Part shown: positions 7,070-32,386 of the stretch, one piece after another
Position numbering within the stretch: the first letter of the stretch is position 1
Layout of the letters: each line of letters opens with the position of its first letter
Source of the DNA: a virus
Virus record (IMG/VR): IMGVR_UViG_3300009103_000085
Span: 1 to 36,817 of that record
DNA: 36,817 nt
Strand: one strand, 5' to 3'
Program-made: the position numbers and the translations under genes
Notes under the pieces: generated by a model
Database searches by the model: none
What the model saw: only the letters and a program-made list of their open reading frames with translations
Told to the model about the DNA's origin: nothing

Positions 7070-8611
7070 TTAGCCACGCTTAATGCCGGCTAAAAGGGCC
7101 CAACGATCCGCCACTCCGTCACTCTCATTCAGGGGCTGGCCTGAAGGTCGTGTCGATTTCGAAGACGATCCGAGCACTTTTCTCTCTTTCGACTCTTTAA
7201 TGGGTTCTTCTTTTTGAAGTCCATTTGAGAGACTTTTATAAAGAAGCTTAGCTTCTCTCAATGTTTCTGCACCGTCAAGTGCTTCAACGATAGTACGCTG
7301 TTGCTTTCTAGTTAATTCTTTGTTTTGCATTAATTTATTTGCATAAAGCAATTTAGCATTAAACAAGTTCATATCCGAAAGCTGTTCTTGCAACTTAGTA
7401 ACAGCCCTAGTTGCATGACGCAACTTTTCTTTAAGAGCTCGATTATTCCGGCTCTCTTCTGGTTCATCTAATTCATTCCCAGTGTCTTCTACAACTACGG
7501 TAGGTGACGCTGGTTCCGGGGTTTCTTCTTTGTCTAAAGTAGAAGTAATTTGAGATTTTTTCTCTATTTCTGACGCTAGCGCTTCGAGAAGTTCATTCTC
7601 ATCAATCTCTATAATCTCGTCATCTGATTCATTAAGTTCGTGCGGAACTCCGTCCATTTCTTCTTGAATCAGTCGATTGATTTCATCGCGAAAGTCTACT
7701 TCACTCATATTTCTATACCCGGAAGTAATTTCTGTTTCTTCAGAAAGTTCAATATCAACTCCCTCGAGTTCTAATACGACTTCCTCTTCCCCAACTTCAA
7801 CTGGGACACCTTGATCCAAGACGTCTCCTATGGCTTCTAGCTCTGCTGCTTCTTCAGCAGCTTCATCTGCCACAGTTTCCAAGGCGGCCTTAGCATCCTC
7901 GATGGCTTCTTGTGCGTCATCCAAAGCTTCCATAGCGTCTGCGGCTGGGTCTTCGATGGGGGCAATGTCGACGGTTTCTTCTTCTTCAGAGACCTCGACC
8001 TCGACACCCTCGACATCATCAGCTGTTTCTTCAAATAGCTTTTGGAAAACGCTGTTTTTTAATCGATGTGACATTTCTTTTAACTCCTTTAACATGCGTT
8101 CGATTTTATCGTGAGGATGATCATCACCAGCCTCCTTTAACAGCAAACTTTTTTCTCTTAATTCGATTGCTTGCTGTAATAAAGAATTAAATTCTTTAAA
8201 AACTGTTAACTGATCAACATCTTCCTGGGATTGCTCTGGATTATTGATCATGTTAGAAAATTGCTTATACTTAGTTTCTATTACCGCATATTCATCTTCA
8301 AAATTATTCACGGCATCGGGAGAGCTATGCTGGATTAACTCTGCCAAAGATTCTGCGAGTTCTAAGTCTTGTGAAGAGGCTTCTGTATTTTCGGAAACTT
8401 CGTTTGGTTCTTCTTGGGTTGTAACATCAGCTTCCAATGGAGTATTTTCTGTATTGAATACTTGTTTATTGTCTCCAAAAAATTCTGCTTCTACTAAAGA
8501 TTGCAATTGTGGTGTAATCGCATCGATAATTTTATTCCTAGCGGATTCTTCTGCCATTTTTTTTAGCTGTTCTGCATCTAATATGGCTTGTTCATACATC
8601 GAAGTAGTCAT
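7070..8611 (-). CDS. Prohead core scaffolding protein, gp22-like
   Basis: The 513-residue product is probably the internal scaffold around which the capsid assembles and which the prohead protease later digests. It is strongly acidic, with long Glu/Asp/Ala-rich helical stretches in the middle (about residues 205-290, for example EDAKAALETVADEAAEEAAE), and lacks recognisable enzymatic motifs. The N-terminus MTTSMYEQAILDAEQLKK and the C-terminal QRTIVEALDGAETLREAKLL helix are of the type I know from scaffold genes next to the capsid gene in marine T4-like phages. It lies directly upstream of the capsid gene, the position of gene 22 in T4. T4 gp22 is about 269 residues, so this is nearly twice as long. 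The ribosome site (GAGTG) is weak. Confidence 0.75.
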   Translation of the reverse strand: MTTSMYEQAILDAEQLKKMAEESARNKIIDAITPQLQSLVEAEFFGDNKQVFNTENTPLEADVTTQEEPNEVSENTEASSQDLELAESLAELIQHSSPDAVNNFEDEYAVIETKYKQFSNMINNPEQSQEDVDQLTVFKEFNSLLQQAIELREKSLLLKEAGDDHPHDKIERMLKELKEMSHRLKNSVFQKLFEETADDVEGVEVEVSEEEETVDIAPIEDPAADAMEALDDAQEAIEDAKAALETVADEAAEEAAELEAIGDVLDQGVPVEVGEEEVVLELEGVDIELSEETEITSGYRNMSEVDFRDEINRLIQEEMDGVPHELNESDDEIIEIDENELLEALASEIEKKSQITSTLDKEETPEPASPTVVVEDTGNELDEPEESRNNRALKEKLRHATRAVTKLQEQLSDMNLFNAKLLYANKLMQNKELTRKQQRTIVEALDGAETLREAKLLYKSLSNGLQKEEPIKESKERKVLGSSSKSTRPSGQPLNESDGVADRWALLAGIKRG

Positions 8612-8660
8612 GTTTTCACTCTAATATCAAAAAATAAATATCGTTAAAATTTTAAAAAAA

Positions 8661-9260
8661 CTAATAAAATTCCATATTTTTGTTGTCTTTTTGCAATAAT
8701 TTCCTTATATACATTCTCAAAGTCTCGTCATATGGTAATTCGTCTGACAAAAAATCAAAAAAATCATCCACCTTTTTCTTTCCCCGTCTGATCCCAGAAG
8801 ACCACCCTTTTTTACTACCAGTGGGCCTGGTCTTGGTTCTAAAGTGAGAAAAAGATGAACCTATGGTTCCTGGCCAAGTTACCAATTCTGGATTGGGCTG
8901 CTTAGTAAAATAAGGCGATTTGTTTATTTTAGAAGTTTTTAAATTTTCACCAAGTTTTGTTGCAGCTCCTACAAAATAAAAAGGATTGCTTCCCTTTTTG
9001 GATAAAGAATCATTCTTATAAACTTTTTTTAAAATTAAAGAATTTATTTTCTTCTTTAAACCCTCTGTCTCTTCTGAGTTTTTAGCCATTCGAATTTGTT
9101 GCAACTCTTCTTGTTCAGCAGACGTAAGCTGATACGGGTATGAACTACGAAATTTAATATTTTTAGAAAATCTTTTTTTAGTTTTTCCATACCCTAGATC
9201 GATTCTAGAATCCATTTGTGGAAAATCTATATGACTAGAAAACTGGCTGTTATCTTTCAT
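8661..9260 (-). CDS. Unknown basic protein of the head region, 199 residues
   Basis: I do not recognise this gene. The product is rich in Lys and Ser, with an early charged helix (LTSAEQEELQQIRMAKNSEE), a middle region with scattered aromatic residues (SPYFTKQPNPELVTWPGTIG), a basic linker (GIRRGKKKVDDFF) and a C-terminal segment DFLSDELPYDETLRMYIRKL that looks like the best-ordered part. No signal peptide or membrane segment is visible. Its ATG directly follows the stop of the preceding gene (TAAATG), so translation is probably coupled. It sits between the protease and scaffold genes, where T4-like phages carry small prohead-core proteins, so a role in prohead assembly is possible but rests on position only. 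Confidence 0.6.
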   Translation of the reverse strand: MKDNSQFSSHIDFPQMDSRIDLGYGKTKKRFSKNIKFRSSYPYQLTSAEQEELQQIRMAKNSEETEGLKKKINSLILKKVYKNDSLSKKGSNPFYFVGAATKLGENLKTSKINKSPYFTKQPNPELVTWPGTIGSSFSHFRTKTRPTGSKKGWSSGIRRGKKKVDDFFDFLSDELPYDETLRMYIRKLLQKDNKNMEFY

Positions 9261-9740
9261 TTATTTTTGGTTAGCGCTCGTGCCTAGCCCAAAAGAACCC
9301 AGCTTACGATTTTTGTATTGTTTAGACGTAGTAGATGGACTTTCGGATGCACCTAAACCACTTCCATAATTATCTGAATTGGGTTGTGTGCCAAAGCCTG
9401 TGGGAGGCTTTGGTTGATCTGTTGGATTTTGGCTACCTGGTCCAGGGGAGGTGGGATTTGGAACAAAGGGCGAAGCTGGGAGACCCCCTCCGCCGGTTTT
9501 GACCTTTTTTAGATTGGGTGCTCCCTCGAAGTCGCGGGAAAATTCTGGGATTCCTAAACCGTCTAAAACCTTTCCATTCATTACTAGTTTTTCGAACTCT
9601 TTTTTAACTTTTGCCGGCGTTAGATCACCGTTATGAATTGGGGAAGAAGGATAAGATTCCTGCATGTCAGTAGTACTACTAGATCCCAAAGATTTGTTTG
9701 TTACTTGAGTATCTACAGTTTTTTGAGATTGAGAAGGCAT
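9261..9740 (-). CDS. Unknown low-complexity Pro/Gly/Ser-rich protein, 159 residues
   Basis: I do not recognise this gene. The product is polar and almost certainly largely disordered. Its N-terminal half is Ser/Thr/Gln-rich, a short helix-prone piece follows (LTPAKVKKEFEKLVMNGKVL), and its second half is Pro/Gly/Asn/Ser-rich, ending in a small basic tail with LGSFGLGTSANQK. GGAG stands 6 bases before the ATG, which supports the start. The next gene begins immediately after its stop. As a disordered protein encoded between protease and scaffold it could be a prohead-core or linker protein. That is inferred from place only. Its Gly/Phe-containing end resembles in style the ends of the 296- and 889-residue proteins in the tail region. 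Confidence 0.6.
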   Translation of the reverse strand: MPSQSQKTVDTQVTNKSLGSSSTTDMQESYPSSPIHNGDLTPAKVKKEFEKLVMNGKVLDGLGIPEFSRDFEGAPNLKKVKTGGGGLPASPFVPNPTSPGPGSQNPTDQPKPPTGFGTQPNSDNYGSGLGASESPSTTSKQYKNRKLGSFGLGTSANQK

Positions 9741-10812: not shown

Positions 10813-11635
10813 CTTCTTCCTCTAATTCGTCTATTAACTTCAACATAATCATTTGTTGAGATTTAGCATTTTTATTTCCTAGCTCAATACTTTGTATTTT
10901 TTTATAAACTGATTTGTATTTGGATTTTAAAATTTCGTTTTTATTAGTATCGTTAAATTCTTTTAAAAGATGAAGAGCCTTGCGCCGTGTGGATGATATC
11001 TCAGCGTTTATTTCTTCTTCCGATGCAGCTAAAATAAAAGATAAAAATGATTTCTGCGTGTTGGATAAAGCGCCTGAATATTTTTTTTCAAATGTCTCTT
11101 TAAAAATAGAAGTAGTAATAAAGTTAACTTTTTTATTTTTTATCAAATTATTTTCTAAACTTTCCGGAGCCTGCATAAACATTTTTAGCCTTTCTTCGTA
11201 TACAGCTACGTCCTCTATGGGGAGAGTGCCCGGGTGTCTCCACTCGTTAAAAAGGCTCTGTACAGTTGCATATCCTCTATATTTTTCTATCCTTGTCGAA
11301 AACAATACGTCTTTTCCAAAAACCCTATTGGCTTCATTAACTAACGTGTCTTTTTCTTTTTTTAAATTATTTACACTAATTTTCTTAATGCTTTCCTTAG
11401 CTAAGGAAAGAATTCTTTCCGAAACTGCTTCGCTCAAGTCTGCAGTTTTTAAGAGTGCACGAAAAAGTTTAAACTCCTTAGAAATTTCAGTATTGTTTTT
11501 ATAATACTTTTTTAGAAATGCTAAATATAAATCTGCTTTATTTTTATTATTTTCCATTAAAGCTTCAGCACTTTTAACTAATACTTGTTCAAATATAAGG
11601 CCGACATTTCTTTTTTTATTGTGACCTTTCGACAT
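10805..11635 (-). CDS. Unknown head-region protein between portal and protease, 276 residues
   Basis: I do not recognise a named family. The product is highly charged and mainly helical: KKRNVGLIFEQVLVKSAEAL near the start, many Lys/Glu-rich helices, a middle motif LFNEWRHPGTLPIEDVAVYE, and an acidic end (LIDELEEEDE). No catalytic motif, signal peptide or membrane segment is visible. It is joined to the portal gene by a TAATG overlap and to the protease gene by an 8-base overlap, so the three are likely translated together. In T4 the same interval holds the small prohead-core genes 67 and 68. An equivalent core or assembly role is plausible from position, but I see no clear sequence match. 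Confidence 0.65.
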   Translation of the reverse strand: MSKGHNKKRNVGLIFEQVLVKSAEALMENNKNKADLYLAFLKKYYKNNTEISKEFKLFRALLKTADLSEAVSERILSLAKESIKKISVNNLKKEKDTLVNEANRVFGKDVLFSTRIEKYRGYATVQSLFNEWRHPGTLPIEDVAVYEERLKMFMQAPESLENNLIKNKKVNFITTSIFKETFEKKYSGALSNTQKSFLSFILAASEEEINAEISSTRRKALHLLKEFNDTNKNEILKSKYKSVYKKIQSIELGNKNAKSQQMIMLKLIDELEEEDE

Positions 11636-13578
11636 TATTCTTCCCCTTTTAATTCTGTTTCAGAATCTTGCGATTCATTTATAATTATACTTTTCGAAAA
11701 TTCATTCAATATATTTGAAATTTCATTGGTCATATTGGCTTGTTGTTTTATTTTTGTTTCAAAAAAATCTTCAAAGCTTTCCTTACCTTCTTTTGATAAA
11801 TTTCTAAATGACTGTTTATCAAATGGGTCATTAGATGTATCTTGAATTCTAGTAGATTTGCCTATTCCAGCTATGCTGGCAAAATTGGGCATAGATGTTT
11901 TAATAGGGCCTGTGGATTTTCTACTCTTTTGAATAGGTTCATTAAAAATATTCATAATTTTGCTCTGCGCTTTAATGGGGGCGTCTTCATCTGAAATAGA
12001 ATATTCGGTACTTCCATGGGAATTTTTATCAGTGGAAGTCAATAACCTAATTTCGCTGCTGGAGGGTTCGGAATTATTGTTATGATCATCAGAGGCAAAT
12101 AAATCTTCTTCCTCTTCTTCTTTTGGGGGTAACTCTTCTGACGCCAGTTGATCAGCCATCTCTTCTTCCGCCCCGGGGGAATCTAACGAAATTTCTTCTA
12201 TTTCCAAATCGCGGATTCGATCTTCCTCTCTTCCTTTTTCTATTCTTTCTATATCCAGCGCTGTTAATCCAACAACATTTTTTCTTACCCAATTTCTATC
12301 TACAATTCCTTCAGGAGCTTGGCCTGCTATTTCAAATCTAGAACGAATTAATTCTAATTTTTGTTGTTGTGCGATCGAACTTGGATTGGAGAGCTTTAGA
12401 TCAAAATCTAATAAATCCTCCCCTGAAAAGCCGTGAGCATAAAGGTGGATGATTGCCATTTTATTCAATTCAGAAATAATTGTTTTTTGAATTCTCTGAA
12501 TTGACCTAGAAAATCTAATGTCCTCTTGTGCCAGTGTAGCTTTAGAACCAATCTCTTCATCATAGCCCAAATAGGCACGTGGTATTTTTAAAGCTGCAAA
12601 TAATTTTTTCTGTATATATTCTACATCCTCTATGGCCGCAGCATTGGTTCCTCCAGCCAGAGTATCTATTTTAGTTCCTGATTCCCCTCCTCTGACTGGA
12701 AGAAAATAGTCTTCATCAACGCTAAGAGGATTATATCGTAAATCTACGCGACCAGTATTTTTGTCCACAACCTTATTTCTTTTTAAAGTATCTTGAACTT
12801 GAGCCATATAGGGAGCAACGTCCTCTGGCGATACGCCTCCTACATCAATATAGAATACCCTTCTCTCTGGTGCCCTTATTACCCTGTACACCAACATTGC
12901 ATCTTCGATAAGGATCAGTTGGCGCCAAATTCTTCTTGCAGATTCTAAAACACTGGATCCATATGGTAGAAATGCATCGCTTCCCAAAAGCCTAAAATGA
13001 ATAACTTGCCAGTTTTCTAATGTCTTATTTCCTTGAGTGATCCACCTAAACCTTACGGCCGCCATGTCCTCTGGATCGAAGCCCTCCTCTCTTTCCATTT
13101 CCGCTATTGGAATAGGGAAAGCATTAACAATCCCATACTGAGGATCTACGTCGATAAATAAGAAAAAGTCCCCATATTTACACAGGTTTCTGGTCCACAT
13201 AGTGAGGTTAAATTCTATATTTAAAACATCATAAAATAAGTTATCTAAAATTTCTTGTATTTTCCTGTTATCCGAATAAACATGGAGTGTTTCCCCCTTT
13301 TCATCAGTAGCAGTTGATTCTTCGGCGTAAATATCAAGTGCACTGGCTATCTCAGGTGTAGCTTCCATTTCGCTAAAATCGCTGTATCTAGACATTCGAT
13401 CAAACGTTCCATAAGCGCTAAGGGCAGCATTGTAGACACTGTTTGCGCCATGGCCAAAAGACTGTACTGATGTTCCAAGCGTTGTTGGCTTATAATTTTT
13501 TACTTTTCTTCTTACTGTAGGACCTGATCTAAACAGCTTGGAAAGTCTTACAAATAAATTTTCTTTGTTATCGGCCAT
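11635..13578 (-). CDS. Portal vertex protein, gp20-like
   Basis: The 647-residue product forms the dodecameric ring through which DNA enters the head. The gp20 pattern is clear: SRYSDFSEMEATPEIASALD followed by IYAEESTATDEKGETL at about 80-115, NLCKYGDFFLFIDVD, ENWQVIHFRLLG, LPYGSSVLESARRIWRQL with LIEDAMLVYRVIRAPERRVF, KIDTLAGGTNA, VEYIQKKLFAALKIPRAYLG, and SKATLAQEDIRFSRSIQRIQ. T4 gp20 is 524 residues. Here the C-terminal part after about residue 470 is a long acidic and Ser/Asn-rich extension, probably disordered and perhaps inside the head. Eleven bases separate it from the terminase gene upstream, and GGAAG precedes the ATG closely. Confidence in the family is high. Confidence 0.94.
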   Translation of the reverse strand: MADNKENLFVRLSKLFRSGPTVRRKVKNYKPTTLGTSVQSFGHGANSVYNAALSAYGTFDRMSRYSDFSEMEATPEIASALDIYAEESTATDEKGETLHVYSDNRKIQEILDNLFYDVLNIEFNLTMWTRNLCKYGDFFLFIDVDPQYGIVNAFPIPIAEMEREEGFDPEDMAAVRFRWITQGNKTLENWQVIHFRLLGSDAFLPYGSSVLESARRIWRQLILIEDAMLVYRVIRAPERRVFYIDVGGVSPEDVAPYMAQVQDTLKRNKVVDKNTGRVDLRYNPLSVDEDYFLPVRGGESGTKIDTLAGGTNAAAIEDVEYIQKKLFAALKIPRAYLGYDEEIGSKATLAQEDIRFSRSIQRIQKTIISELNKMAIIHLYAHGFSGEDLLDFDLKLSNPSSIAQQQKLELIRSRFEIAGQAPEGIVDRNWVRKNVVGLTALDIERIEKGREEDRIRDLEIEEISLDSPGAEEEMADQLASEELPPKEEEEEDLFASDDHNNNSEPSSSEIRLLTSTDKNSHGSTEYSISDEDAPIKAQSKIMNIFNEPIQKSRKSTGPIKTSMPNFASIAGIGKSTRIQDTSNDPFDKQSFRNLSKEGKESFEDFFETKIKQQANMTNEISNILNEFSKSIIINESQDSETELKGEE

Positions 13579-13589
13579 CTTCCATCCAT

Positions 13590-15185
13590 TTATTTAAGTA
13601 ACCAACTTAAATCAAATTTCTTTTGTTCTATTTCATCTTTTCCATTAACATCACCAGAAATTGGGACTGGTTGAAATGGGTTTAGTAATTCTTTTTTACT
13701 AAATGGGTTCTGCTCCACTGTTGGTGATTTGTTTACTGCAAATGCGGCTAACATAGCTGATTTTATCGCTTGATCTTGTTTAGTTAAACCGGGGTTTGTA
13801 TCATACAACCAAATACCAATAGCTAACGATATTACTAAGTCATCATTTTTGCCCTTTCTAGCTTGAGGCTTTTTACCTTTCCAAACGAATGTTTTTATTT
13901 CTTCATACAGCCTTGAAGAATAACTCTTTATTTGTTTATTTCTTATTACTTCTTCTAATTTAGCCAATATTTTAGGGCGAGTTTTAACGGTAGTTTGAAA
14001 TCCTATTTTAGATATGTTAGATTCCCCATACAGGTCGGCATAGCGGTCTTTCTCATGAGTAAAATAAAGATTACTATAATCTAATTCCTTGAGTTTCATA
14101 ATAGTTGCATATCCATATGTATTATTTTCTGGACATACTAGGGCATTTCCATATCTTCTAGCTGCTTCGACTATCAATAATGCGAATCTGTCTGGCGGGA
14201 GTTTTCCCTTGTACTCACAAACTATTTCGCTATCTTGCGTATCTATAACGTGAAAAGTACTAAAATCCGCAGCATCCCCCCTAGAAACATCAGCACTTAA
14301 AATATATTTTCTATTATCTAAACCATATTTCCATACCCAAACGCCGGCTTTCGGACCCCATTTTTCCATTGGTTCTTTAATGTTCTGACGTAGATATTCG
14401 ATATCATTGGCCGATAAAAATGTATTTCCGCTAGCTGCAAAATCGCACATAAGTTCTTGGGCTATTTGCTGGGGCGTCATATTTTTGGCTTCTGCCTCAA
14501 ACCACGAGGCATCTCTTTCTGGATGGACATCCCATAATAGCTTAATAGGATTAAATTTATTAATTCCTTCTGCAGCGTCTGTGTATATTTTATGATACAT
14601 GTTTCCCACACCGTTGGGCGTCGATAAAACTATTGCTCTTCCCCCGGTGGAAAGAGTGGAATATAACCCCCTCCAGACTTCATCAAAATTTTTTACAAAT
14701 GCTGCTTCATCCACAATCAATAAAGATAATGCTTCTGATCTTCCAGCATCGTCGGATGTGGGAATAGCTTTAATTTGACTTCCATTACTAAAAAGAATAG
14801 TCTGTTTGTTGTTTTCCATGATGGTGGGAAGCATTAACCACTTAGGCAAATTTTTAATTATAACTTTTGTTTTTTTGATAAAATTCATTGCTACAGAAAG
14901 TTTAGTAGCAATGATTAAAATATTTTTATCTTTATAAAAAATAGCTAGCCATACTGCATATGCAGCAGATAACGTGGTAAGTCCTAATTGCCTAGATTTT
15001 AAAACCACGTTAAAACGATGATCTATAAAGTCTTTAGTACACTGATCTTGAAATGGAAAAGTTTTAAAATCAATTAAACCACGAGTGGGGTGCTGAATTT
15101 TGGCATAGTTGTTGAAAAAATAGACCGGTTTTTTTCCGCAAGCAACAATTTCATTTACTTGCCGTTGTTTATTAGTAATTCCCAT
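13590..15185 (-). CDS. Terminase large subunit, gp17-like packaging ATPase/nuclease
   Basis: The 531-residue product powers DNA packaging and cuts concatemers. The ATPase part has the variant Walker A SRQLGLTT at about 64-71, Walker B LLIVDEAA at about 155-162 with Asp159/Glu160, and the coupling motif VLSTPNG at about 186-192. The nuclease part has ILSADVSRGDAADFST at about 295-310 with Asp299 as a likely metal ligand, CPENNTYGYA at about 351-360, and KNDDLVISLAIGIW near the C-terminus with an Asp pair. These are the expected RNase-H-fold positions of gp17-type terminases. T4 gp17 is 610 residues and most phage large terminases are 450-600. The ATG follows directly on the stop of the gene upstream (TAAATG), so it is probably translationally coupled. 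Confidence 0.95.
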   Translation of the reverse strand: MGITNKQRQVNEIVACGKKPVYFFNNYAKIQHPTRGLIDFKTFPFQDQCTKDFIDHRFNVVLKSRQLGLTTLSAAYAVWLAIFYKDKNILIIATKLSVAMNFIKKTKVIIKNLPKWLMLPTIMENNKQTILFSNGSQIKAIPTSDDAGRSEALSLLIVDEAAFVKNFDEVWRGLYSTLSTGGRAIVLSTPNGVGNMYHKIYTDAAEGINKFNPIKLLWDVHPERDASWFEAEAKNMTPQQIAQELMCDFAASGNTFLSANDIEYLRQNIKEPMEKWGPKAGVWVWKYGLDNRKYILSADVSRGDAADFSTFHVIDTQDSEIVCEYKGKLPPDRFALLIVEAARRYGNALVCPENNTYGYATIMKLKELDYSNLYFTHEKDRYADLYGESNISKIGFQTTVKTRPKILAKLEEVIRNKQIKSYSSRLYEEIKTFVWKGKKPQARKGKNDDLVISLAIGIWLYDTNPGLTKQDQAIKSAMLAAFAVNKSPTVEQNPFSKKELLNPFQPVPISGDVNGKDEIEQKKFDLSWLLK

Positions 15186-15584: not shown

Positions 15585-15896
15585 CTATTCTCTTCTAAAG
15601 AAAAAAGGAATATTTTCCCTTTTTTTTAATATTTTTTTAACTTCTGCCCTATTGGGGCGCCAACCGGCTCGCCATTGTTCATAATTTGGCTCTAAAAATG
15701 CCTTAACACATTCGCTACAAGCCTGGTTGGATTCATAGGATTCAAAATCCAATGAGCTTAAAAGTAAATTGCAAACTGAACACGATTCTGGATATTTTGC
15801 TCTTATTTTATTTTTTCTAATTAACACTATATTTTCAAACTCTGCTTCTTCTATCCCTTTGGACCTTGCGAGCCATTTAATTCTCTTTGTCGACAT
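15585..15896 (-). CDS. Small zinc-finger protein, 103 residues
   Basis: The product has two Cys pairs, C39-x2-C42 (ESCSVCN) and C60-x2-C63 (QACSECV), separated by 17 residues, which should bind one zinc ion in a small zinc-ribbon or treble-clef fold. The N-terminus is basic (MSTKRIKWLARSKG), and the C-terminus has EQWRAGWRPNRAEVKKILKK. This suggests nucleic-acid or protein contact. It starts 20 bases inside the 3' end of the Mre11-Rad50 gene, with GAGG upstream, so it belongs to the DNA-metabolism operon. It lacks the catalytic residues and length of endonuclease VII or HNH nucleases, so I make no enzymatic claim. Zinc binding is likely; the role is unknown. Confidence 0.65.
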   Translation of the reverse strand: MSTKRIKWLARSKGIEEAEFENIVLIRKNKIRAKYPESCSVCNLLLSSLDFESYESNQACSECVKAFLEPNYEQWRAGWRPNRAEVKKILKKRENIPFFFRRE

Positions 15897-18800
15897 GCGA
15901 ATCTTTTCCTCGTTTTGATATTTCTATAATATTATCTACTGAATCTTTAACTGCATCTACGTGAGAAATTACCAATATAGATTTAAACCATTTTTTTAAA
16001 TTCTGTAATAGGGCATTACATGCTTCTACATTGCTTGCATCCAAAGCCCCAAATCCTTCATCAATAATTAGTATATCTGACTTTGGAAGAGAACTTAAGT
16101 TCATTAATGCTACCCTGATTGCTAAAGAAGATAACATTTTCTCCATTCCTGATGCACATTCAATAATACGCTTTGAATCTCCATAGTTAATAAAAATATC
16201 CATCGCATTAGAATTAGAATCTGCAACTAATTCTACCGTAAAGCCAGTAGTTCCTTGCAATATTTCTGCTATTTCCAGGTTAATAAGTGGTAATTTTGAA
16301 GTTAAAATATCTAATGGAATTCCATTTTTAGAACTGGCTTTAACAAATATATCAATAATTTGCCACTCCTTGGATAGCTCTAAAAATCTTTTTTCATCTT
16401 TTTTTGTTTTTTCTAATTCTGATTTAATTCTTCCAATAATTTGGTTAGAAGATAGCCTGGTCGAATCGATGGTGGCAATTTCTTTTTCTAATTCTGCTCT
16501 TGCTGTTTTTAAAGTGTTAATATCCTCTGGGTCTTTGGAAGACGACTTATTATTCATATCTTCTAACTTCAGTTTTTCTAAATCTACTTTTTCTTTTTTT
16601 AATTCTAATTTTTCTCCAATGATTTTTATTAACCTAGTTTCTCCTTCGATATTTCTTTCTAAAAGCTTCAACTTCTCTTTAAGCATTTTAATTTTTTTAA
16701 TTTTTTCTTCTATTAAATCTACGTTGATTAGCTCGTAGGAATCGCTAAAATTTTCTATTAAAGAATTCATCTGTCCCATTTGTTCTTCTATGCCCTGAAT
16801 AAGTTCATAGGAACGGTGGGCCTTGGTGATAAATTTGCAATTTGGAAAAGTTGTACCACAAGGAACCTCTTTTAAAATAATGGAAGATTCAAAATATTCC
16901 TTCTTTTTCCTTTTTAGTTCTCCACATTCTCTTTTCAAGTCTTCAATTTTTTTATTTATCTTTGATGCATTTTGCAATTGCTGGCATAAAAAATTTTCAT
17001 TTTCAGAATTTAAAATATTTTCCAAAGAACAATATTGCTCCTTTCTTTCTAGCCATTTTTTTTGTAAATTTTTTCTTTCTAACACTAAAACGGATAGCTC
17101 CCCCTCTTCGGCGGTTACTTTACGCCGTTGATTATTAACATCGAATTCTGTAATAATTCCGTCCGGGACAGTAGCTAGAAAGGAGTCTATTTTTCTTAAA
17201 TCTCCTCTTTTTTCTTCCAAAATTCTAGAATTTTCTTCTAAGTCTTTTTTAATTTTTTTAATTTCTAAGTCTTTTTCTTGTTTTATAGTAGTCCAATCTC
17301 TCTGAGGGGCTTCAGAAAGTTTTCCTTTTAATTCTAATAAATCTTTTCTAGCTGCTAAATTCATTTGTTCAAAGACATCCAAATCTAAAAAGCTGGCTAA
17401 AATAGATTTTCTGCTAGTTGCCTTTTCTTTAATGAACGTATTCATCTCTCCCTGAGATGCGAATGAAGTCATTAAGAAATCTTCGCTTGTCCCTATAAGT
17501 TCTCTTACTAGTTTTTCTGTATTTCTTCTTTGTTCTAAAGATAAATCCCTTATGGTATTTCCGCTTTCATCCAATTCAAAAAGATTTAAATGAGTAGCCG
17601 CGGAGACTCTGCCGGTTCTTGCAACATTTTTTGTGGTTTGTCTTTCTAGTAGGTAGAATTTAGAATTTACAGAAAATGTAATTTGTGTACTGCAATAATT
17701 CTTTCTAGCATTGATAATGTGCAAATTTTTTAATGTGCCCCTATCTGATGTGTTGAATAGTCCATACATTAATGCCCCGGGAATAGAGGACTTACCGCTT
17801 CTATTTTTTCCAAAAATGCCCACTACGCCTTTCAGTGTATTAAAATTAATCTCATTATCCTCTCCGTAAGAAAATAAATTATTAAATTTTAAATTATTAA
17901 TTGACCACTTAGAATTTCTTCTTTTTTCTACTTCTGGTATTTTTGAAATTATTTTTTCTAAATAATCTAAAACTTTAGATTGGTCATTTTTAGTAACAAA
18001 ATTATTTTCTATCCACTTAGAAAAATAAGAATTTAAAACTTTTTTATCTCTAAAGTTAATATTTTTTTGAAAATCGCTTTCAATATAAGGTTTATTTTCG
18101 ATCTTTTTTAAATCGTGAACTAACTCATGAATGTTATACTGTTCTTTTAATGCACTTTTTAAATGCATCCAACTAACTTGATCTATGTGGTTGCTACTCC
18201 TAATTCTAACCCTAGCTCCCTCTGTAATAGCAGCTTTATCAATAGTTTCTTGAACGCTACCAAGCCAATGAGCAGTGATAAATGGGTGATCGTGCTCGAC
18301 GGAATAAAAATCAACTTCAAAATCTTCTCTATCATTTATCTGCCAATATAAAAATCCCTTTCCAGGAGTTTCCCCAAAGTCTTGTTGTATAAAAGAACCC
18401 GGGTAAGCAATTCGTTTGTTTCCATCAACAAATTGCATCTTATGAATATCACCTAAAAAAGCAAAATCATATTTATCAAAAAAACTGGTATCTATTTCGC
18501 TATCTAGCTCCCACTCTATGTCTGTTAAGGAGCCTAAAACAGGCCCGTGATAACACCCTATATTAACCGTACCCTGTGGTGGTTTTAGTTTTGGCCAGTT
18601 CTGTTCGTCAAAACAGGAAAAAACGCAAAATTTAAAACCTTCTATGCCAGAATCATACACGCCTGTATATTTGTGGAGATGAAGATTTTCTAATCCTAAT
18701 GCACGGACAATGGGCGAAATGGCATCCTGCCTTTGGGGGTTTAATATTAAACCATCATGATTTCCCAATATAACATGCACGTGAGAAGTAAGTTCACAAA

Positions 18801-19014
18801 GTTTTTTAAACCACCACGAAAGTATATCGATTAATTCAGGGGATATTCCCTGAGTTTTGCTATGAACAATATCACCACCGATGAAAATAACATCTGGTTT
18901 TAATTTTTTCACTTTTTTATAAAATCTTTCAAAAGAATTTCTATATTCTGTATGTCTGGTCAATCCCCTGAAGTGTATGTCAGATAAGTGAACACAGGTA
19001 AATTTATATTTCAT
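15877..19014 (-). CDS. Fused Mre11-Rad50 (SbcD-SbcC, gp47-gp46-like) recombination nuclease in a single chain
   Basis: The 1045-residue product joins two normally separate subunits of a DNA-end-processing nuclease. Residues 1-240 form a metallophosphoesterase with all motifs: SDIHF (Asp12, His14), GGD (48), GNHD (84-87), YHGP (His156) and GDIH (188-191). After a linker (about 250-365), an SMC-type ATPase begins: Walker A GKNRSGKSS at 402-410. Long charged coiled-coil segments flank a possible hook, C719-x6-C726. The C-terminal half has the signature CASGMEKM (about 953-960), Walker B ILIIDEGFGALD (about 981-992) and the H-loop SHVD (His1018). T4 encodes gp47 and gp46 as two genes. The ATG overlaps the primase stop (ATGA). 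It probably processes DNA ends for recombination-dependent replication and host DNA breakdown. Confidence 0.93.
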   Translation of the reverse strand: MKYKFTCVHLSDIHFRGLTRHTEYRNSFERFYKKVKKLKPDVIFIGGDIVHSKTQGISPELIDILSWWFKKLCELTSHVHVILGNHDGLILNPQRQDAISPIVRALGLENLHLHKYTGVYDSGIEGFKFCVFSCFDEQNWPKLKPPQGTVNIGCYHGPVLGSLTDIEWELDSEIDTSFFDKYDFAFLGDIHKMQFVDGNKRIAYPGSFIQQDFGETPGKGFLYWQINDREDFEVDFYSVEHDHPFITAHWLGSVQETIDKAAITEGARVRIRSSNHIDQVSWMHLKSALKEQYNIHELVHDLKKIENKPYIESDFQKNINFRDKKVLNSYFSKWIENNFVTKNDQSKVLDYLEKIISKIPEVEKRRNSKWSINNLKFNNLFSYGEDNEINFNTLKGVVGIFGKNRSGKSSIPGALMYGLFNTSDRGTLKNLHIINARKNYCSTQITFSVNSKFYLLERQTTKNVARTGRVSAATHLNLFELDESGNTIRDLSLEQRRNTEKLVRELIGTSEDFLMTSFASQGEMNTFIKEKATSRKSILASFLDLDVFEQMNLAARKDLLELKGKLSEAPQRDWTTIKQEKDLEIKKIKKDLEENSRILEEKRGDLRKIDSFLATVPDGIITEFDVNNQRRKVTAEEGELSVLVLERKNLQKKWLERKEQYCSLENILNSENENFLCQQLQNASKINKKIEDLKRECGELKRKKKEYFESSIILKEVPCGTTFPNCKFITKAHRSYELIQGIEEQMGQMNSLIENFSDSYELINVDLIEEKIKKIKMLKEKLKLLERNIEGETRLIKIIGEKLELKKEKVDLEKLKLEDMNNKSSSKDPEDINTLKTARAELEKEIATIDSTRLSSNQIIGRIKSELEKTKKDEKRFLELSKEWQIIDIFVKASSKNGIPLDILTSKLPLINLEIAEILQGTTGFTVELVADSNSNAMDIFINYGDSKRIIECASGMEKMLSSLAIRVALMNLSSLPKSDILIIDEGFGALDASNVEACNALLQNLKKWFKSILVISHVDAVKDSVDNIIEISKRGKDSHVDKEN

Positions 19015-19991
19015 CTAATCTTAGTTCCACTTTTTATTTTAGAAATCTTATTGGTGATAGTATAAAACGGGTTCCAAAGAAATGATTCTTTTTTATATTC
19101 TAAAAATTTAGTTTTAGTCATTTCTCCAACGTCTGCATATTGACCTAACGACATAATATATACTTTCAATCCAGCTTGAAACAATAATTGTGCTATTTTA
19201 TTTATCTTATCTGCCGCGTCGGCATCTAGGGCTAATATAACTTCTGTATTGTTTTTAACTAGTTGCTTATAAAGTTGGTGAGATTCTTTTAATTCAGAAC
19301 CCAACAAACAGGCAGCATTCACATCACATTTTATTAAATCGAAAGGCCCCTCTACTAATGTTATAGGCTTTGAAAAATCCAAATTAATTTCATTAAAAAT
19401 AATAGCTTTTTTTTCATTTTTTGAATTTAAATATTTCATTTTTTTATCTGGATCAATGGTTCTAGAAACCCAATAATTATATGATCCATCTTCAGCAATA
19501 GATGGAAAAACCACCCTTCGTTTCAAGCGACCACTAGTATAGGCCCCTAGTCGGAATCTCCATAAATCAGAATAAGATACCCCCCTTTTATTAAGATAAT
19601 TAAAAACTGCCTTAACATCTGGGTCATGGTGATGCAAATTATCTGCTAATAATACAAACCCCGGAGGTAGATCATCAACAAAACTGGGATTTGTAACGTT
19701 ACTATCGTTTTTCCTATAGGTGCTACCAAATAAGCGTACAGATTCTTCATAGTGGTGAGAAGAATGCTTTTTTACTAATTTGGTAAATCCCCTTCCTTTT
19801 AATCCGCACACCCAACAATGGTAAAGCTGTTCGTCTATTTTAAAAATAAGCTTAAGCTTTGCTCGACTATTTCTAGAAGGACAATTATCATTTACGCATC
19901 TGAAGCATATATTTACTTGATCTTTGGATATAATGCATTTTCCAAAACACTTTTGTAAAAATAGCGTTTTTTTTCTATCATCAACTTTCAT
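19011..19991 (-). CDS. DNA primase, DnaG/gp61-type with zinc finger and Toprim core
   Basis: The 326-residue product probably makes RNA primers for lagging-strand synthesis. The N-terminus has a zinc-binding region with C29-x2-C32, Cys37 and C59-x2-C62 (YHCWVCG). The Toprim fold is shown by LVEGPFD (Glu214 to Asp218) and LALDADAAD (Asp256 and Asp258), which should bind catalytic metals. The length is close to T4 gp61 (about 342) and much shorter than bacterial DnaG, with no room for a helicase-interaction domain. No helicase gene is in the window. The upstream gap is 16 bases and I see no Shine-Dalgarno-like site before the ATG, so translation may depend on coupling to the resolvase gene. The stop overlaps the next start as ATGA. 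Confidence 0.85.
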   Translation of the reverse strand: MKVDDRKKTLFLQKCFGKCIISKDQVNICFRCVNDNCPSRNSRAKLKLIFKIDEQLYHCWVCGLKGRGFTKLVKKHSSHHYEESVRLFGSTYRKNDSNVTNPSFVDDLPPGFVLLADNLHHHDPDVKAVFNYLNKRGVSYSDLWRFRLGAYTSGRLKRRVVFPSIAEDGSYNYWVSRTIDPDKKMKYLNSKNEKKAIIFNEINLDFSKPITLVEGPFDLIKCDVNAACLLGSELKESHQLYKQLVKNNTEVILALDADAADKINKIAQLLFQAGLKVYIMSLGQYADVGEMTKTKFLEYKKESFLWNPFYTITNKISKIKSGTKIR

Positions 19992-20007: not shown

Positions 20008-20562
20008 TTATTTTTTTAACCAAGCCAGTCCCACTACGCATGCATCCGAAATGTCATATACTCCATCTGCCCACACGGTGGTACCCTTTCGTGGACCCCT
20101 GGTTAACTTTTTTGTCTCCCAATTTATTTTACAACTTCGTTCTAACAAGTACAAATCTAAATATGATCGTACTTGCTCTTTAGTAGATATACCACAGTCT
20201 CTTTCTTTTTGTAATTTGATTCCAATCTTTTTTCTTGCTTTAATAACGTTCACACTAATCACTGGGCAGTTTAGCGAGGCACCTAGCGCATATGATAAAG
20301 CTCCATTAAATCTAGCTAATTTATTTATTGTTGATGCACTAGAAAACCCAGTCCGAAAAGATTGAAGATTTTCCTCTATTATAATAGTGTGAATATCTAA
20401 ATCTTTAACCAAATTTAAGCATATATTTTTTGCTTTTTCTACTTTCTCAACAAAGTTTTTGATTTTTCTTAAATCAATCGATTGGTATTTTATTACATGT
20501 TCAGCTGCATCAATGACAGCTGCACCAACTATGCTGGTGGATATATCTAAGGCTATTATCAT
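20008..20562 (-). CDS. RuvC-like Holliday-junction resolvase (RNase H fold)
   Basis: The 184-residue product probably resolves branched DNA made by recombination and replication, so that the terminase receives linear concatemers. The RNase-H-like acidic residues are in place: Asp6 in IIALDISTS, Glu63/Glu64 in TIIIEENLQS, and Asp170/Asp173 in VYDISDACVVGLAWL. The size matches RuvC (about 170-190). It is not like T4 endonuclease VII (gp49), which usually serves this role in T4. The start ATG shares one base with the stop of the 903-residue structural gene (TAATG), so resolvase translation is tied to that gene. Some RuvC-like phage proteins have other nuclease roles, so the exact substrate is an inference. 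Confidence 0.82.
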   Translation of the reverse strand: MIIALDISTSIVGAAVIDAAEHVIKYQSIDLRKIKNFVEKVEKAKNICLNLVKDLDIHTIIIEENLQSFRTGFSSASTINKLARFNGALSYALGASLNCPVISVNVIKARKKIGIKLQKERDCGISTKEQVRSYLDLYLLERSCKINWETKKLTRGPRKGTTVWADGVYDISDACVVGLAWLKK

Positions 20563-23273
20563 TAAAAATCTTTTTTCAATTTAAATAATAATTCGTCTCC
20601 AGGTCTTTTTACAATAGGTTGAGAAAGTTTTGCTCTGCCTACCACGTTTAGGTCATCGTCATGTAACAGTACATCCGTAATGTACACAAACGAAGTAGCA
20701 TTTTCATTCACATTATCAGTAGGCGCTAATTCCTTATACGTTAAATTAGAGCTACTATTTAAAAAATTCTTAGGTGCTGCTGCTAAATATTCAGCTGAAT
20801 TTACATCACTAGACCCCTTGAAAGAAGTTTCGAAACTGGCTGATCCAAATAGAGAAATATGGGGAGACTTAACAAAGGCTATCCCTTCATTGTAAAAAAG
20901 ATTTCCTACAGAATTCCATTTAGCCGAAGGAGTTACACAATTATCTCGATACAGTGTTCCAAACCCATTATCTCTCAAGATTATTTTCACTTTCCCTCCG
21001 GAGCCGTAATAAGAAGTATCAGTTATTTCAAACGTATTAGGATGAATAGCATTTCCATAAAATATACTGGGAATATCAAAAAAACAAACATGGTTAGAAG
21101 ATTCATCTCCAGAGGCTTGAAACACGTAAAGCTGGCCACCTCCGCCGTCTGAAGTGTCTCCTCCGCCGGATGAAGAGAATGCATGCTGAGTTTTAAGGGG
21201 AGAGTTTCTAAAAGAAACTCCATTGTTAAAATATACCAGTTGGGTTAGGTATGTTGCCCAAGAATCATTCTCTGAGGGGCCTCCATAAAAGTCCCAATCG
21301 TCCTCGTTGTAGTTAAATCGCTGTGGTTCAAATAAGTCGGTCTTTATTCTATTCTTCGCTGTTTCTTTCAGCCCCATTCGATCATCTAGCATGCTATTTA
21401 ATGAAATAAGGGTTAAATTCGTACTTCCGGTGTCGTCTACATAGCGAGATAACAACGAGCCAGTTGTAGGTGAAGCTTCAAATGGCCCAGAAAGTAATAG
21501 AGTAAAGTCGGGCCTGAATTTTCCATTATCACACGGCAAAATAGTTAAATCTTTGGTGACAAAACTCTTCTTTTGAAAAAGCCGCTCAGTTGCTGTTTGT
21601 CCCTCCGTCCCGGAAGCCCCTTCTGAACCTGTTAAATTAAACAGCCTAGGATATCGACTTTGAACATGTTCTTTTAAAAATGTAGGAAGGCATATATCTA
21701 GTCCTCCGTTACAAAATGACATTGTTACATTAAACGGAGCTTTCATAATGTGTTTGCCGCCGGCTAGTATTTTTGTATTTTTGTAAATACGCTGAACTGG
21801 CGACGTGGCTTCGAATAAACATGGCAAATAAAAACACAGCCCATTGGATTTTGCAGAGTCCATAGAGGATGAGCCGTATCCTTTTATACTTTCTGATACG
21901 ATTTGTTTTAAATCTCTAAATTGTTTAAATATTTTTATTTCGTGCATCTCGGCGTTTAGGCGATGATTAAAAGCGCTATTGGCTCCAGTTGGATCCCCTC
22001 CAAAAGAACTTAATTTTAAAAGACCTTCGTTGGTGGCTGTTTTCCTATTAAAAAACCTAGATGTTTGTGTAGCACCGGCATTGATGCCTTCAAAATAATT
22101 TCCTACCACCAAACAATCCGGATCGTTTCTTCCGCTACCGAAGCCAGCATAAACACTAGAGCCTGCTGGGATCGAAATTGATTGCCTTGAAAGTAAAAAT
22201 TCGCTATCCAGCTTACCATCAATAAAGAAGCTTCCTGTTCCGTTATTGATATCTGATCCGCCCCAGCGTATCGCAACATGGTGCCAATTGTTTTTTAAAA
22301 TAGAGTTATCAGAACTAGTAAATATTAATGCAGGAAGGCCATCTACATCAGATTGAGGGGTATCTATTGCGATATCGCTGGGTTTAATATCTGCACTAGA
22401 GCTTAGCTGTAGCAATAATCTAAAACCATTGGGTGTACCGCTTTTATTTAACGACGATCCAGAAACCAAGCTTATAGCATAAGTTGAAGAATAATGCAAA
22501 ATAGTACCAGCTTTAAATTCATCTCCTTCTTTGTCTGTAGTGTATCTAGGATTTATCCAAAACTCAAAAGAAAATTCAGAATCTGGTCGATAAGCCCCAG
22601 TTAGGGGTGAGTGATCTAGGGTATCGGCCGAGGGATCGGGGTAGATGATAGCGGAATTATTTAAAACTTGAGAAGCAGTAAAAAAATTGAGACAATTATA
22701 GTTCGTATAAGCATAATCACACTTATCGTATATTCCACGGTAATATGGGAAAAGCGTTTTTCTTATAGTATTTTTTTTAAATGTCCCCGTTGATGGAACT
22801 GAAACTGTGACTTGTGACCAACTGCCTGCAGATCCGGTGCGGTAATCTGGGATTGACTGGTTAGTGAATGCCGGAGTATCTCTTATGATCTTAATGTATT
22901 TCTTATCTGCTCCCACGTTTGCCAACCCATTACGGATTTTGCCTTTTTTCCCAGCCGCGTTTGGATTGGTTCCTAATAATTTGTTTAACTCTGGAACTGG
23001 GTTATTGTTTTCTCCATTGTAAACATTGCCAGATATAGATTGATGAATCTTATCGAGGTATACTAAGTATTCCTGGTAACTGTCGTTAGCATCAATCCCC
23101 TGTATGTTTGGACGATCCTTGGGCCGCATTCGCTTTCGATCACCAGCCTTAAAGGGGGTTAATTTAATCCTACCAGTATATTGTCCGCTAATTGGCTTAA
23201 CAAAAGACCGTGAAACGTGCGTAGTCAGGGTAGTCAGCGTAAAAAATGATTTGTCAAATCGAAGGATCGACAC
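20562..23273 (-). CDS. Large virion structural protein with LamG-like lectin domain (tail/fibre region)
   Basis: The 903-residue product starts at a GTG with AAGGAGG 4 bases upstream. At about residues 205-455 it has a LamG/concanavalin-type fold: FSFEFWINPR (235-243), NNWHHVAIRW (328-337), GSFFIDGKLD (347-356) and a closing AEMHEIKIF strand (441-449). Such domains often bind sugars. The C-terminal 120 residues carry a module with NLFYNEGIAFVKSPH, FLNSSSNLTYKE and FVYITDVLLHDDD, ending in VGRAKLSQPIVKR and LLFKLKKDF, which matches the end of the 394-residue neighbour in layout. I know this module from structural proteins of marine T4-like phages. No signal peptide is seen. A host-surface-contacting tail or baseplate role is likely but not proven. 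Confidence 0.78.
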   Translation of the reverse strand: MSILRFDKSFFTLTTLTTHVSRSFVKPISGQYTGRIKLTPFKAGDRKRMRPKDRPNIQGIDANDSYQEYLVYLDKIHQSISGNVYNGENNNPVPELNKLLGTNPNAAGKKGKIRNGLANVGADKKYIKIIRDTPAFTNQSIPDYRTGSAGSWSQVTVSVPSTGTFKKNTIRKTLFPYYRGIYDKCDYAYTNYNCLNFFTASQVLNNSAIIYPDPSADTLDHSPLTGAYRPDSEFSFEFWINPRYTTDKEGDEFKAGTILHYSSTYAISLVSGSSLNKSGTPNGFRLLLQLSSSADIKPSDIAIDTPQSDVDGLPALIFTSSDNSILKNNWHHVAIRWGGSDINNGTGSFFIDGKLDSEFLLSRQSISIPAGSSVYAGFGSGRNDPDCLVVGNYFEGINAGATQTSRFFNRKTATNEGLLKLSSFGGDPTGANSAFNHRLNAEMHEIKIFKQFRDLKQIVSESIKGYGSSSMDSAKSNGLCFYLPCLFEATSPVQRIYKNTKILAGGKHIMKAPFNVTMSFCNGGLDICLPTFLKEHVQSRYPRLFNLTGSEGASGTEGQTATERLFQKKSFVTKDLTILPCDNGKFRPDFTLLLSGPFEASPTTGSLLSRYVDDTGSTNLTLISLNSMLDDRMGLKETAKNRIKTDLFEPQRFNYNEDDWDFYGGPSENDSWATYLTQLVYFNNGVSFRNSPLKTQHAFSSSGGGDTSDGGGGQLYVFQASGDESSNHVCFFDIPSIFYGNAIHPNTFEITDTSYYGSGGKVKIILRDNGFGTLYRDNCVTPSAKWNSVGNLFYNEGIAFVKSPHISLFGSASFETSFKGSSDVNSAEYLAAAPKNFLNSSSNLTYKELAPTDNVNENATSFVYITDVLLHDDDLNVVGRAKLSQPIVKRPGDELLFKLKKDF

Positions 23274-25296: not shown

Positions 25297-26976
25297 TTAC
25301 TTTTCATTGATTTTTATTTCTAAATCCTGTGTCTGCTGATTGTTTAAGTTAATAAATTGAATTCTGTATTTCTCCTCTTTACCAACTTTTAAAACCAGAG
25401 TATTGGACTCCTCAAACTCTTCAGTAGTAGTACTGTATTTAACGCTGTACAGTTCTTTAACATCTGGGTCTAAATAAATTGCTGCCTTTTTGGGACGAGA
25501 TATTTTTAATAAATTTTCAGCCAAAATACTGGAGATATAAAAATTTGGATAAGCTTTTGGAGCACCTTCTTGTGAAATTCTTTTAATCTCTATTCCATTA
25601 CTTAGTGCTTGATAATCTACTTGATACTGAGCTGAATAACCACTAGTTTTACCAAACACATCCACACTACATATGCAATAAATATTGGGCTCGAATTTAT
25701 TAAAATTTTCATCTATATAAAAAACTTCTAAATCTTCTTGGAGTACCGTGAGTCCATAGTCTATTATTTCTGTGTTAGCTGCGGTAGAATTTTTAAGCTT
25801 GTATTCTCGCAACAGTGCGTATGGCTCAGTAACACTACTTCTTTTGAATATTTGAAATTTATCAATTTGACTGGCCCCAACCGCAGGAAAAGACCAGTGG
25901 AAATATACATCATTAGAATTTCTTATATACTCAAATTGTAAATCGCTGGGTGGGAGTGGAGCCAGGTAGGAAGTATCTATCAGCCTGCTTTCGCCATTAG
26001 AAAGTAAAACAAATTCTCCTATTTCTAAATCTCCACCTTGGCCTATGACGTTTAAATATCGCGTTAATAAAACTGCATGGAGCGTATAAATATACTCATA
26101 TCCAGCATCGATCTCGGTATCAAAAATAATCACCTCTGTTCCAGGGGAGCTGGGTTGGGCCTTGAATATAGAAACTGGTGGATCTGTTTTTCCATTGGCA
26201 TAAATTTTTTCTTTTTTAATTTCATAACCAATTACAATAGATTCACCAAAAGCCTCTGGCGGCTGAGCAAACATGTTGGTTGCTTCTGCTAAAATTTCAT
26301 ACTCATTAGAAACTATTTGATTTGTAATAAAACTATTGACAGCAGAATTTTGAATTTCTTGTGCTTCGTCAGCCAAAAAACTAAATGGAGTATGAAAATT
26401 ATTTAAACTATCTGCGCTGCTATTGTGAATAATATTATTTAAAATTTTATTATTTACCAATGTTTGGCCACGTGTGGATGGAATAAAGGAAAAAATATCA
26501 TTGCTTACATCCATATCCAGTTTTTTAATTTCCGAAATTTGATTTAATTTTGAAGCCAAGCACTGAAGTGCAAAATCAGAATAATATCCCACAGTACCAC
26601 TGGGGCTTATTGTGGTTGTAACAATATTAAAGGAGTCAGTTGGCGATGCATTCAATAAATCATCGCCAAATGAAGAGCTCAAAAAATTGGCTACTTTTTT
26701 ATCAAAATATAAATCCTGCATAGAAATAAACGTTGCTTGCGAAGGATCTAGGGGGTTTTTTAATGGTTCATGAGAGTCAAGCAGATCTGCTAAGTCGATA
26801 GCACTATAAGTGGAAAAACTGATATTGCTGTTTCCAGAACCAAGATCGGGTGAATTTACACAAGAAAAAAAGGAAATTAATACCGTTCGATCCGATCGCA
26901 GATCTACATTAAATCCAACTGGCTGAGGCGCTGACACGAATTGTAGAATGGGGGATGGCTGAGAATTATTACTCAT
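25297..26976 (-). CDS. Unknown structural protein with two FN3-like segments, 559 residues
   Basis: I do not recognise the family. Two parts look like fibronectin-type-III beta sandwiches: about 240-330 (VIGYEIKKEKIYANGK, then IFDTEIDAGYEYIYTLHAVL) and about 342-455 (PPSDLQFEYIRNSNDVYFHW, SQIDKFQIFKRSS, then PNIYCICSVDVFGKTSGYSA). The N-terminal 230 residues are polar with some helices. The C-terminus (KAAIYLDPDVKELYSVKYS onward) may be another small beta domain. Its ATG overlaps the stop of the 782-residue gene as ATGA. FN3-like domains are common on phage surface proteins and may bind host or protein partners weakly. A tail or virion-surface role is inferred from the domains and the neighbours. 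Confidence 0.65.
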   Translation of the reverse strand: MSNNSQPSPILQFVSAPQPVGFNVDLRSDRTVLISFFSCVNSPDLGSGNSNISFSTYSAIDLADLLDSHEPLKNPLDPSQATFISMQDLYFDKKVANFLSSSFGDDLLNASPTDSFNIVTTTISPSGTVGYYSDFALQCLASKLNQISEIKKLDMDVSNDIFSFIPSTRGQTLVNNKILNNIIHNSSADSLNNFHTPFSFLADEAQEIQNSAVNSFITNQIVSNEYEILAEATNMFAQPPEAFGESIVIGYEIKKEKIYANGKTDPPVSIFKAQPSSPGTEVIIFDTEIDAGYEYIYTLHAVLLTRYLNVIGQGGDLEIGEFVLLSNGESRLIDTSYLAPLPPSDLQFEYIRNSNDVYFHWSFPAVGASQIDKFQIFKRSSVTEPYALLREYKLKNSTAANTEIIDYGLTVLQEDLEVFYIDENFNKFEPNIYCICSVDVFGKTSGYSAQYQVDYQALSNGIEIKRISQEGAPKAYPNFYISSILAENLLKISRPKKAAIYLDPDVKELYSVKYSTTTEEFEESNTLVLKVGKEEKYRIQFINLNNQQTQDLEIKINEK

Positions 26977-29321: not shown

Positions 29322-29357
29322 TTATTTCCTCTAATCTTCATTGCTAAATTTAACCCG

Positions 29358-31148: not shown

Positions 31149-31150
31149 GA

Positions 31151-31432
31151 TTATATGATAATTTTAGTGGGCTGTTTGACTTTAGCTGCATTTCTGTTTT
31201 TAGGTCTTGCTGCTTGTTGGCTAGATTGTTTATCCTGTTTTGTAGTCCTGGATTTTCTAGCATTAAGAGATACGGAATTCCTTACTGCGGAAGAAAGCTT
31301 TTCTTTTTTCTTCTTTTTAGCAGCAGAATTTCTTTTTTTTCCATTTCCATTAACTGAACTTGTCTTTTCATCTTCTAATGGTTGAGCGGTAGAAGACAGA
31401 CGGATATTTATTGCTTTTAATTTAGATGCCAT
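31151..31432 (-). CDS. Small Lys/Ser-rich basic protein, 93 residues
   Basis: I do not recognise this gene. The product is very basic and polar, with a run of lysines (SAAKKKKKEKLSSAVRNSVS) and a C-terminal ARPKNRNAAKVKQPTKIII. It is probably disordered and should bind nucleic acid or acidic proteins non-specifically. No clear ribosome site precedes the ATG; the upstream bases are only A/T. It is followed after 2 bases by the 596-residue gene, so the two are likely coupled. It resembles in composition, but not in alignable sequence, the H1-like protein at 4712-4942. Coding is supported by its place in an otherwise continuous gene row and by close spacing to its downstream neighbour. Confidence 0.5.
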   Translation of the reverse strand: MASKLKAINIRLSSTAQPLEDEKTSSVNGNGKKRNSAAKKKKKEKLSSAVRNSVSLNARKSRTTKQDKQSSQQAARPKNRNAAKVKQPTKIII

Positions 31433-31478
31433 AAAAAATAAATATTAAAAATAAAAAATAACCGTGTAAAATAACATA

Positions 31479-32369: not shown

Positions 32370-32386
32370 AATTTATTTCCTTATCC

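Follow-up and report, generated by a model that had tools for sequence, protein, structure and literature searches.

The window analysed here, a 36.8-kb viral fragment, carries a fused gene which, with a probability of roughly 0.8, encodes a single-chain Mre11-Rad50 (SbcDC) acting as a DNA-end processor of a phage with T4-type head genes. Mre11 is a DNA-end-trimming nuclease and Rad50 is its ATP-driven partner. The gene is a single uninterrupted open reading frame (ORF) of 1045 codons at positions 15,877–19,014 on the minus strand, with an Mre11/SbcD half at residues 1–365 followed by a Rad50/SbcC half at residues 369–1045, the arrangement of R555-type fusions. Pfam search of the protein detected Metallophos at residues 7–167 (E = 1.6 × 10−11) and AAA_23 at residues 375–594 (E = 2.1 × 10−10), and PHROGs returned SbcD-like phrog_100 over residues 6–365 (E = 1 × 10−22) and SbcC-like phrog_77 over residues 256–1044 (E = 2 × 10−52). 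The ORF and both sets of matches bear out the initial annotation, which had recognised Mre11 and Rad50 in one 1045-codon frame and left the strand unstated. An AlphaFold2 model of the monomer was built from a 24-sequence alignment (mean pLDDT 84, pTM 0.48). According to these computations, one chain runs from a nuclease core through a capping domain, a helix-loop-helix that binds Rad50 and a linker of about 12 residues to a Rad50 ATPase, complete with its coiled coils and cysteine hook.

Searching IMG/VR yielded at least 595 relatives of the fused gene, and clustering at 90% identity left 140 full-length non-redundant ones. An uninterrupted single ORF was present in 125 of these 140 relatives, which come from independent assemblies; the two domains are thus joined in one chain across independent genomes, as the initial annotation had proposed to check. 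One ORF spanned the Mre11/Rad50 junction in 222 of the 236 loci examined, many of them on truncated contigs, and breaks at the junction were restricted to T4 gp46 itself and to contig L224, where the gene is disrupted by five frame breaks. The fused gene is also carried by an isolated phage, Microcystis phage Mel-JY01, where it is annotated only as 'AAA domain containing protein', and a 1202-aa version belonging to the CX2C branch was found in a 735-kb uncultured phage. Joining of two adjacent genes through a stop lost in assembly or sequencing is therefore extremely improbable and gained no support: relatives with a break do exist, but it lies inside the nuclease domain, in some lineages only, rather than as a stop and start between the two domains. 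An artefactual or frameshift fusion was rejected on the basis of this survey. No separate Mre11 and Rad50 genes close to the fused family were found; separate phage homologues matched only at E values of ~10−5 to 10−9, over one ATPase or nuclease lobe. Matches in GTDB were mostly contigs of marine MAGs, and these bacterial matches are probably binned phage DNA.

The Mre11 nuclease (metallophosphoesterase) core occupies residues 5–241 (18,292–19,002, minus strand, as are all parts of the gene given below), as indicated by the Pfam match, invariant motif residues and structure. Residues 4–302 of the model aligned with the nuclease and capping domains of S. aureus SbcD (7dog_A) with a Z-score of 24.4. 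The full metallophosphoesterase motif set claimed previously stands for D12, H14, D48, N85, H86, H156 and H191 (motifs I–V), kept in 137–140 of 140 relatives, but not for the eighth metal ligand, which is Asp189 in 140/140 relatives where P. furiosus Mre11 has His206. Since D189 replaces a conserved metal-ligand His, nuclease activity could be altered. This residue belongs to the stretch 189–207 (DIHKMQFVDGNKRIAYPGS; 18,394–18,450), which holds motif V and the hairpin position at which some relatives are split, with the hairpin modelled in relative L026.

The stretch following the nuclease core had been described as a linker at about residues 250–365 replacing the usual capping/Rad50-binding interface; profile, model and structural alignment indicate that it contains this very interface. 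The model shows a strand-helix-strand-helix-strand arrangement at residues 245–302, matching the capping domain (18,109–18,282) and included in the 7dog_A alignment, then a low-confidence, disordered segment at 303–320 and two helices at 324–338 and 342–356. These helices form the predicted Rad50-binding helix-loop-helix (residues 324–356; 17,947–18,045). A family sequence profile over residues 174–358 matched E. coli SbcD 214–397. When residues 1–378 of L026 were modelled separately, the best match was Mre11 from the Mre11-Rad50 crystal 3tho_B (Z = 25.5, 313 residues, over 1–368), E. coli SbcD in the SbcCD complex (6s6v_A) gave a Z-score of 24.6 over 1–369, and alignments with ordinary phosphoesterases ended near residue 245 with Z of ~18 or less. 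By sequence profile and modelling, residues 245–365 are thus an ordinary Mre11 capping domain plus a Rad50-binding helix-loop-helix, and the added linker comprises only about 12 residues (357–368; 17,911–17,946), which lack secondary structure in the model and connect the final Mre11 helix to the Rad50 half, whose first strand starts at residue 369. A linker of 9–12 residues was estimated from the T. maritima complex, in agreement with this length (PMC3175470).

A novel linker that replaces the interface and restrains the heads is consequently very unlikely; disorder at 303–320 and the lower conservation of 245–365 relative to the catalytic core speak for it, but 245–302 and 324–356 are accounted for by capping domain and helix-loop-helix in both profile and structure. 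The native linker length suggests that the fusion places little restriction on head rearrangement. Because the Mre11 C-terminus and the Rad50 N-terminus are already close in the unfused complex, the fusion probably fixes stoichiometry without a new restraint.

The Rad50 half contains an N-terminal ATPase lobe at residues 369–564 (17,323–17,910; Walker A 402–410), supported by Pfam AAA_23 and Rad50 structures, and a C-terminal lobe at residues 899–1045 (15,880–16,320; signature 955–959, Walker B 982–986), supported by Pfam, structure alignment and conservation. Model residues 368–1045 aligned with Rad50 structures with Z-scores up to 30.4. The previous claim of a complete SMC-type ATPase motif set was upheld: Walker A (K408/S409), Q-loop (Q521), signature (S955-G956-M-E958), Walker B (D985/E986), D-loop (D992) and H-loop (H1018) were all found, and these sites are invariant or nearly so among the 140 relatives. 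Long helices at 574–716 and 730–894 form an antiparallel coiled coil in the model, with a predicted CX6C zinc hook at its apex (residues 717–729; 16,828–16,866). Its cysteines C719 and C726 are kept in 122/140 and 140/140 relatives, respectively. The window protein has this apex cysteine pair and lacks the strict CX2C spacing, which more distant relatives and branches keep, aligned at C726. The hook is described in the literature as CXXC (PMC5093744), and no description of a CX6C variant was found in the papers searched, which cover the literature in part. The CX6C pair is predicted to bind zinc. By its modelled fold and motifs, the window protein is a Rad50-type ATPase with a variant hook.

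The gene lies in a cassette with the order RuvC-like resolvase, primase, fused gene, two small ORFs, terminase large subunit, portal, prohead protease (200 aa) and capsid. All five of the following neighbours are on the minus strand. A RuvC-like Holliday junction resolvase (20,008–20,562; phrog_159, E = 2 × 10−8) is accompanied by a DnaG-type primase (19,011–19,991; Pfam and PHROG), which starts the conserved cassette and overlaps the fused gene by 4 bp. Downstream are the terminase large subunit (13,590–15,185; Pfam Terminase_6N, conserved in relatives), a T4-type portal protein, Gp20 (11,635–13,578; Portal_T4, E = 4 × 10−77), and a T4-type major capsid protein, Gp23 (5093–7018; Pfam Gp23, E = 4.5 × 10−76). 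Of the 113 relatives whose flanking sequence was long enough, 111 have the primase directly upstream of the fused gene; terminase and portal genes are common after it.

Several other features of these genomes were recorded. A 903-aa ORF at 20,562–23,273 of the window, in which Pfam recognised a concanavalin/laminin-G-like domain (Laminin_G_3), lies between the replication genes and large uncharacterised ORFs and is a conserved neighbour in relatives. The very large ORFs at 25,297–35,056 (559, 782, 596 and 889 aa) have no Pfam match, the first three also lacking a PHROG match; they may be tail or baseplate genes that have diverged beyond the reach of the libraries. In Microcystis phage Mel-JY01 (L071), a gene for a SegE-like GIY-YIG endonuclease (6223–6732) lies just upstream of the primase and fused gene. 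The portal gene of relative L035 contains an in-frame insert of ~1.1 kb (8603–9720) compared with L003, which reads like an HNH-containing intein. A separate second gp46/gp47 pair may exist elsewhere in the genome, beyond the 36.8-kb fragment.

The combination of RuvC-like resolvase, primase, SbcDC, terminase and portal in one cassette points to a role in replication, recombination and preparation for packaging. In T4, gp46/gp47 are assigned the provision of ends for recombination-dependent replication and the removal of hairpins and branches before packaging. Judging from its cassette, the fused enzyme would likewise prepare DNA ends for recombination-dependent replication and clear hairpins and branches before packaging. 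As in the rest of the family, two fused chains would dimerise via their nuclease domains and ATP-sandwiched heads, with a further contribution from the hook if its cysteines bind zinc, and ATP hydrolysis would give the nuclease access to DNA ends or hairpins. The working form is most likely a homodimer of the fused chain, which would correspond to the M2R2 machine that SbcC2D2 builds from four chains, and the fusion would mainly ensure 1:1 stoichiometry and co-inheritance. An ATPase-nuclease that has diverged to serve a different purpose, for example defence, counter-defence or the cleavage of RNA, is an unlikely alternative. The changed metal ligand D189, the altered CX6C hook spacing and the signature SGMEK instead of SGGE would fit such a divergence, but the remaining catalytic residues are all kept, the fold matches SbcD and Rad50, and the gene adjoins primase, RuvC and terminase genes rather than a defence island.

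The most interesting lead is provided by the split relatives. In 15 of the 140 non-redundant members two genes replace one, and the break always falls inside the nuclease, between motif V (GDIHK) and the YPGS strand; none of the 15 is broken at the Mre11/Rad50 junction. The corresponding position in fused relatives is a loop or beta-hairpin, formed by strands 189–195 and 201–207 in the L026 model. At least 8 changes between the fused and split states were counted on a 97-row tree, 6 of them forced by well-supported branches; branch support on this quickly searched tree was limited to SH-aLRT, and gene conversion near homing sites could have distorted its topology.

At four loci (L035, 1259–5420; L070, 3935–8157; L170, 2276–6445; L181, 4989–9158), a homing-endonuclease-like gene of about 300 codons separates the halves. 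The L170 product weakly matches Vsr (E = 4 × 10−4), and that of L070 a TnsA-type nuclease domain (E = 6 × 10−6). Both are matches to nucleases of the PD-(D/E)XK type, in line with homing endonucleases; the L035 product had no Pfam match. L035 is collinear with its fused neighbour L003 (76% DNA identity), 1062 bp in L035 taking the place of 41 bp in L003. Other relatives keep the split without an endonuclease, among them L164, L165, L167, L023, L028, L042 and L065; an 882-bp insertion distinguishes L170 from L167, which is nonetheless split. Two further causes of the break were rejected. For a group I/II intron, no Rfam match was obtained in L035, L070, L170, L164, L165 or the window, and many splits are 4-bp gene overlaps with no room for an intron. 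As regards a split intein, the tails of the first ORFs and heads of the second are only ~13–30 residues long, and inspection revealed no obvious intein N-terminal Cys or C-terminal HN motif.

The upstream products end in acidic tails with a mean net charge of −5.9 and the downstream products start with basic strands averaging +5.0, compared with +0.3 for the loop in fused relatives. These oppositely charged pieces may come together in an extended hairpin and so restore the active site. We lean slightly towards a history in which the covalent link between Mre11 (capping domain/helix-loop-helix) and Rad50 was kept while homing endonucleases repeatedly broke the nuclease active site at the tip of one beta-hairpin, the two chains reassembling via complementary acidic and basic strand extensions and the split outliving the endonuclease, together with a new CX6C hook replacing CX2C in most members, including that of the window. 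A comparable case is nrdA of phage Aeh1, split by the homing endonuclease gene mobE and still functional (PMC2988022). In both cases the gene of a conserved enzyme is interrupted at a critical site by that of a homing endonuclease, and its fragments are retained; the present case differs in that Mre11-Rad50 is broken, at the same site in several lineages, and the splits outlast the endonuclease. No description of this recurrent split was found in the papers searched, a partial coverage of the literature.

The fusion as such is not new, and the window gene is a newly seen case of a kind known since 2011. In that year Yoshida et al. reported chains joining Mre11 to Rad50 from Mimivirus (R555), a Bacillus phage, and both bacteria and eukaryotes, deduced that phage versions are abundant in marine metagenomes, and argued that the order Mre11-then-Rad50 fits the known Mre11-Rad50 geometry (PMC3175470). 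R555-type fusions share with the window protein this order in one chain, the retained capping domain and helix-loop-helix, a short extra linker and Asp in place of His206, which R555 also has (PMC3175470); they are likewise abundant in aquatic viral fractions, with primase genes on the same scaffolds. According to its published description, R555 differs in its length of 1351 aa, longer coiled coils and the eukaryotic host of its virus, in contrast to 1045 aa and a phage with Gp20/Gp23 head genes here. The gp47-gp46 domain order of the T4 Mre11/Rad50 pair is reproduced in the fused chain; however, T4 uses two genes, as previously remarked, its gp47 has GHFH (His kept) rather than GDIH, and gp46 carries a CX2C hook, CPTC. 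SbcD-SbcC (Mre11-Rad50) of E. coli and T. maritima have the same domains and motifs by profile and structure, but are two polypeptides with His at the 206 position and, in E. coli, longer coiled coils. SbcC/SbcD are nearly universal in jumbo phages, with fusion unmentioned in the parts of that source consulted (PMC7824862). Our literature search, which covered few subscription papers, found no later work specifically on phage SbcDC fusions.

The 2011 inference of R555-like fusions in aquatic phages thus gains a firm genomic home, the RuvC-primase-SbcDC-terminase-portal cassette of phages with T4-type head genes. The fusion is widespread in uncultured aquatic phages and is present in an isolated phage too. 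Because nature has set its stoichiometry and linkage, a single-chain Mre11-Rad50 of ~1050 residues whose coiled coils are short makes an attractive target for structural work. With the hook variant and the naturally split relatives, one could test directly to what extent the interface and active site of Mre11-Rad50 depend on covalent continuity.
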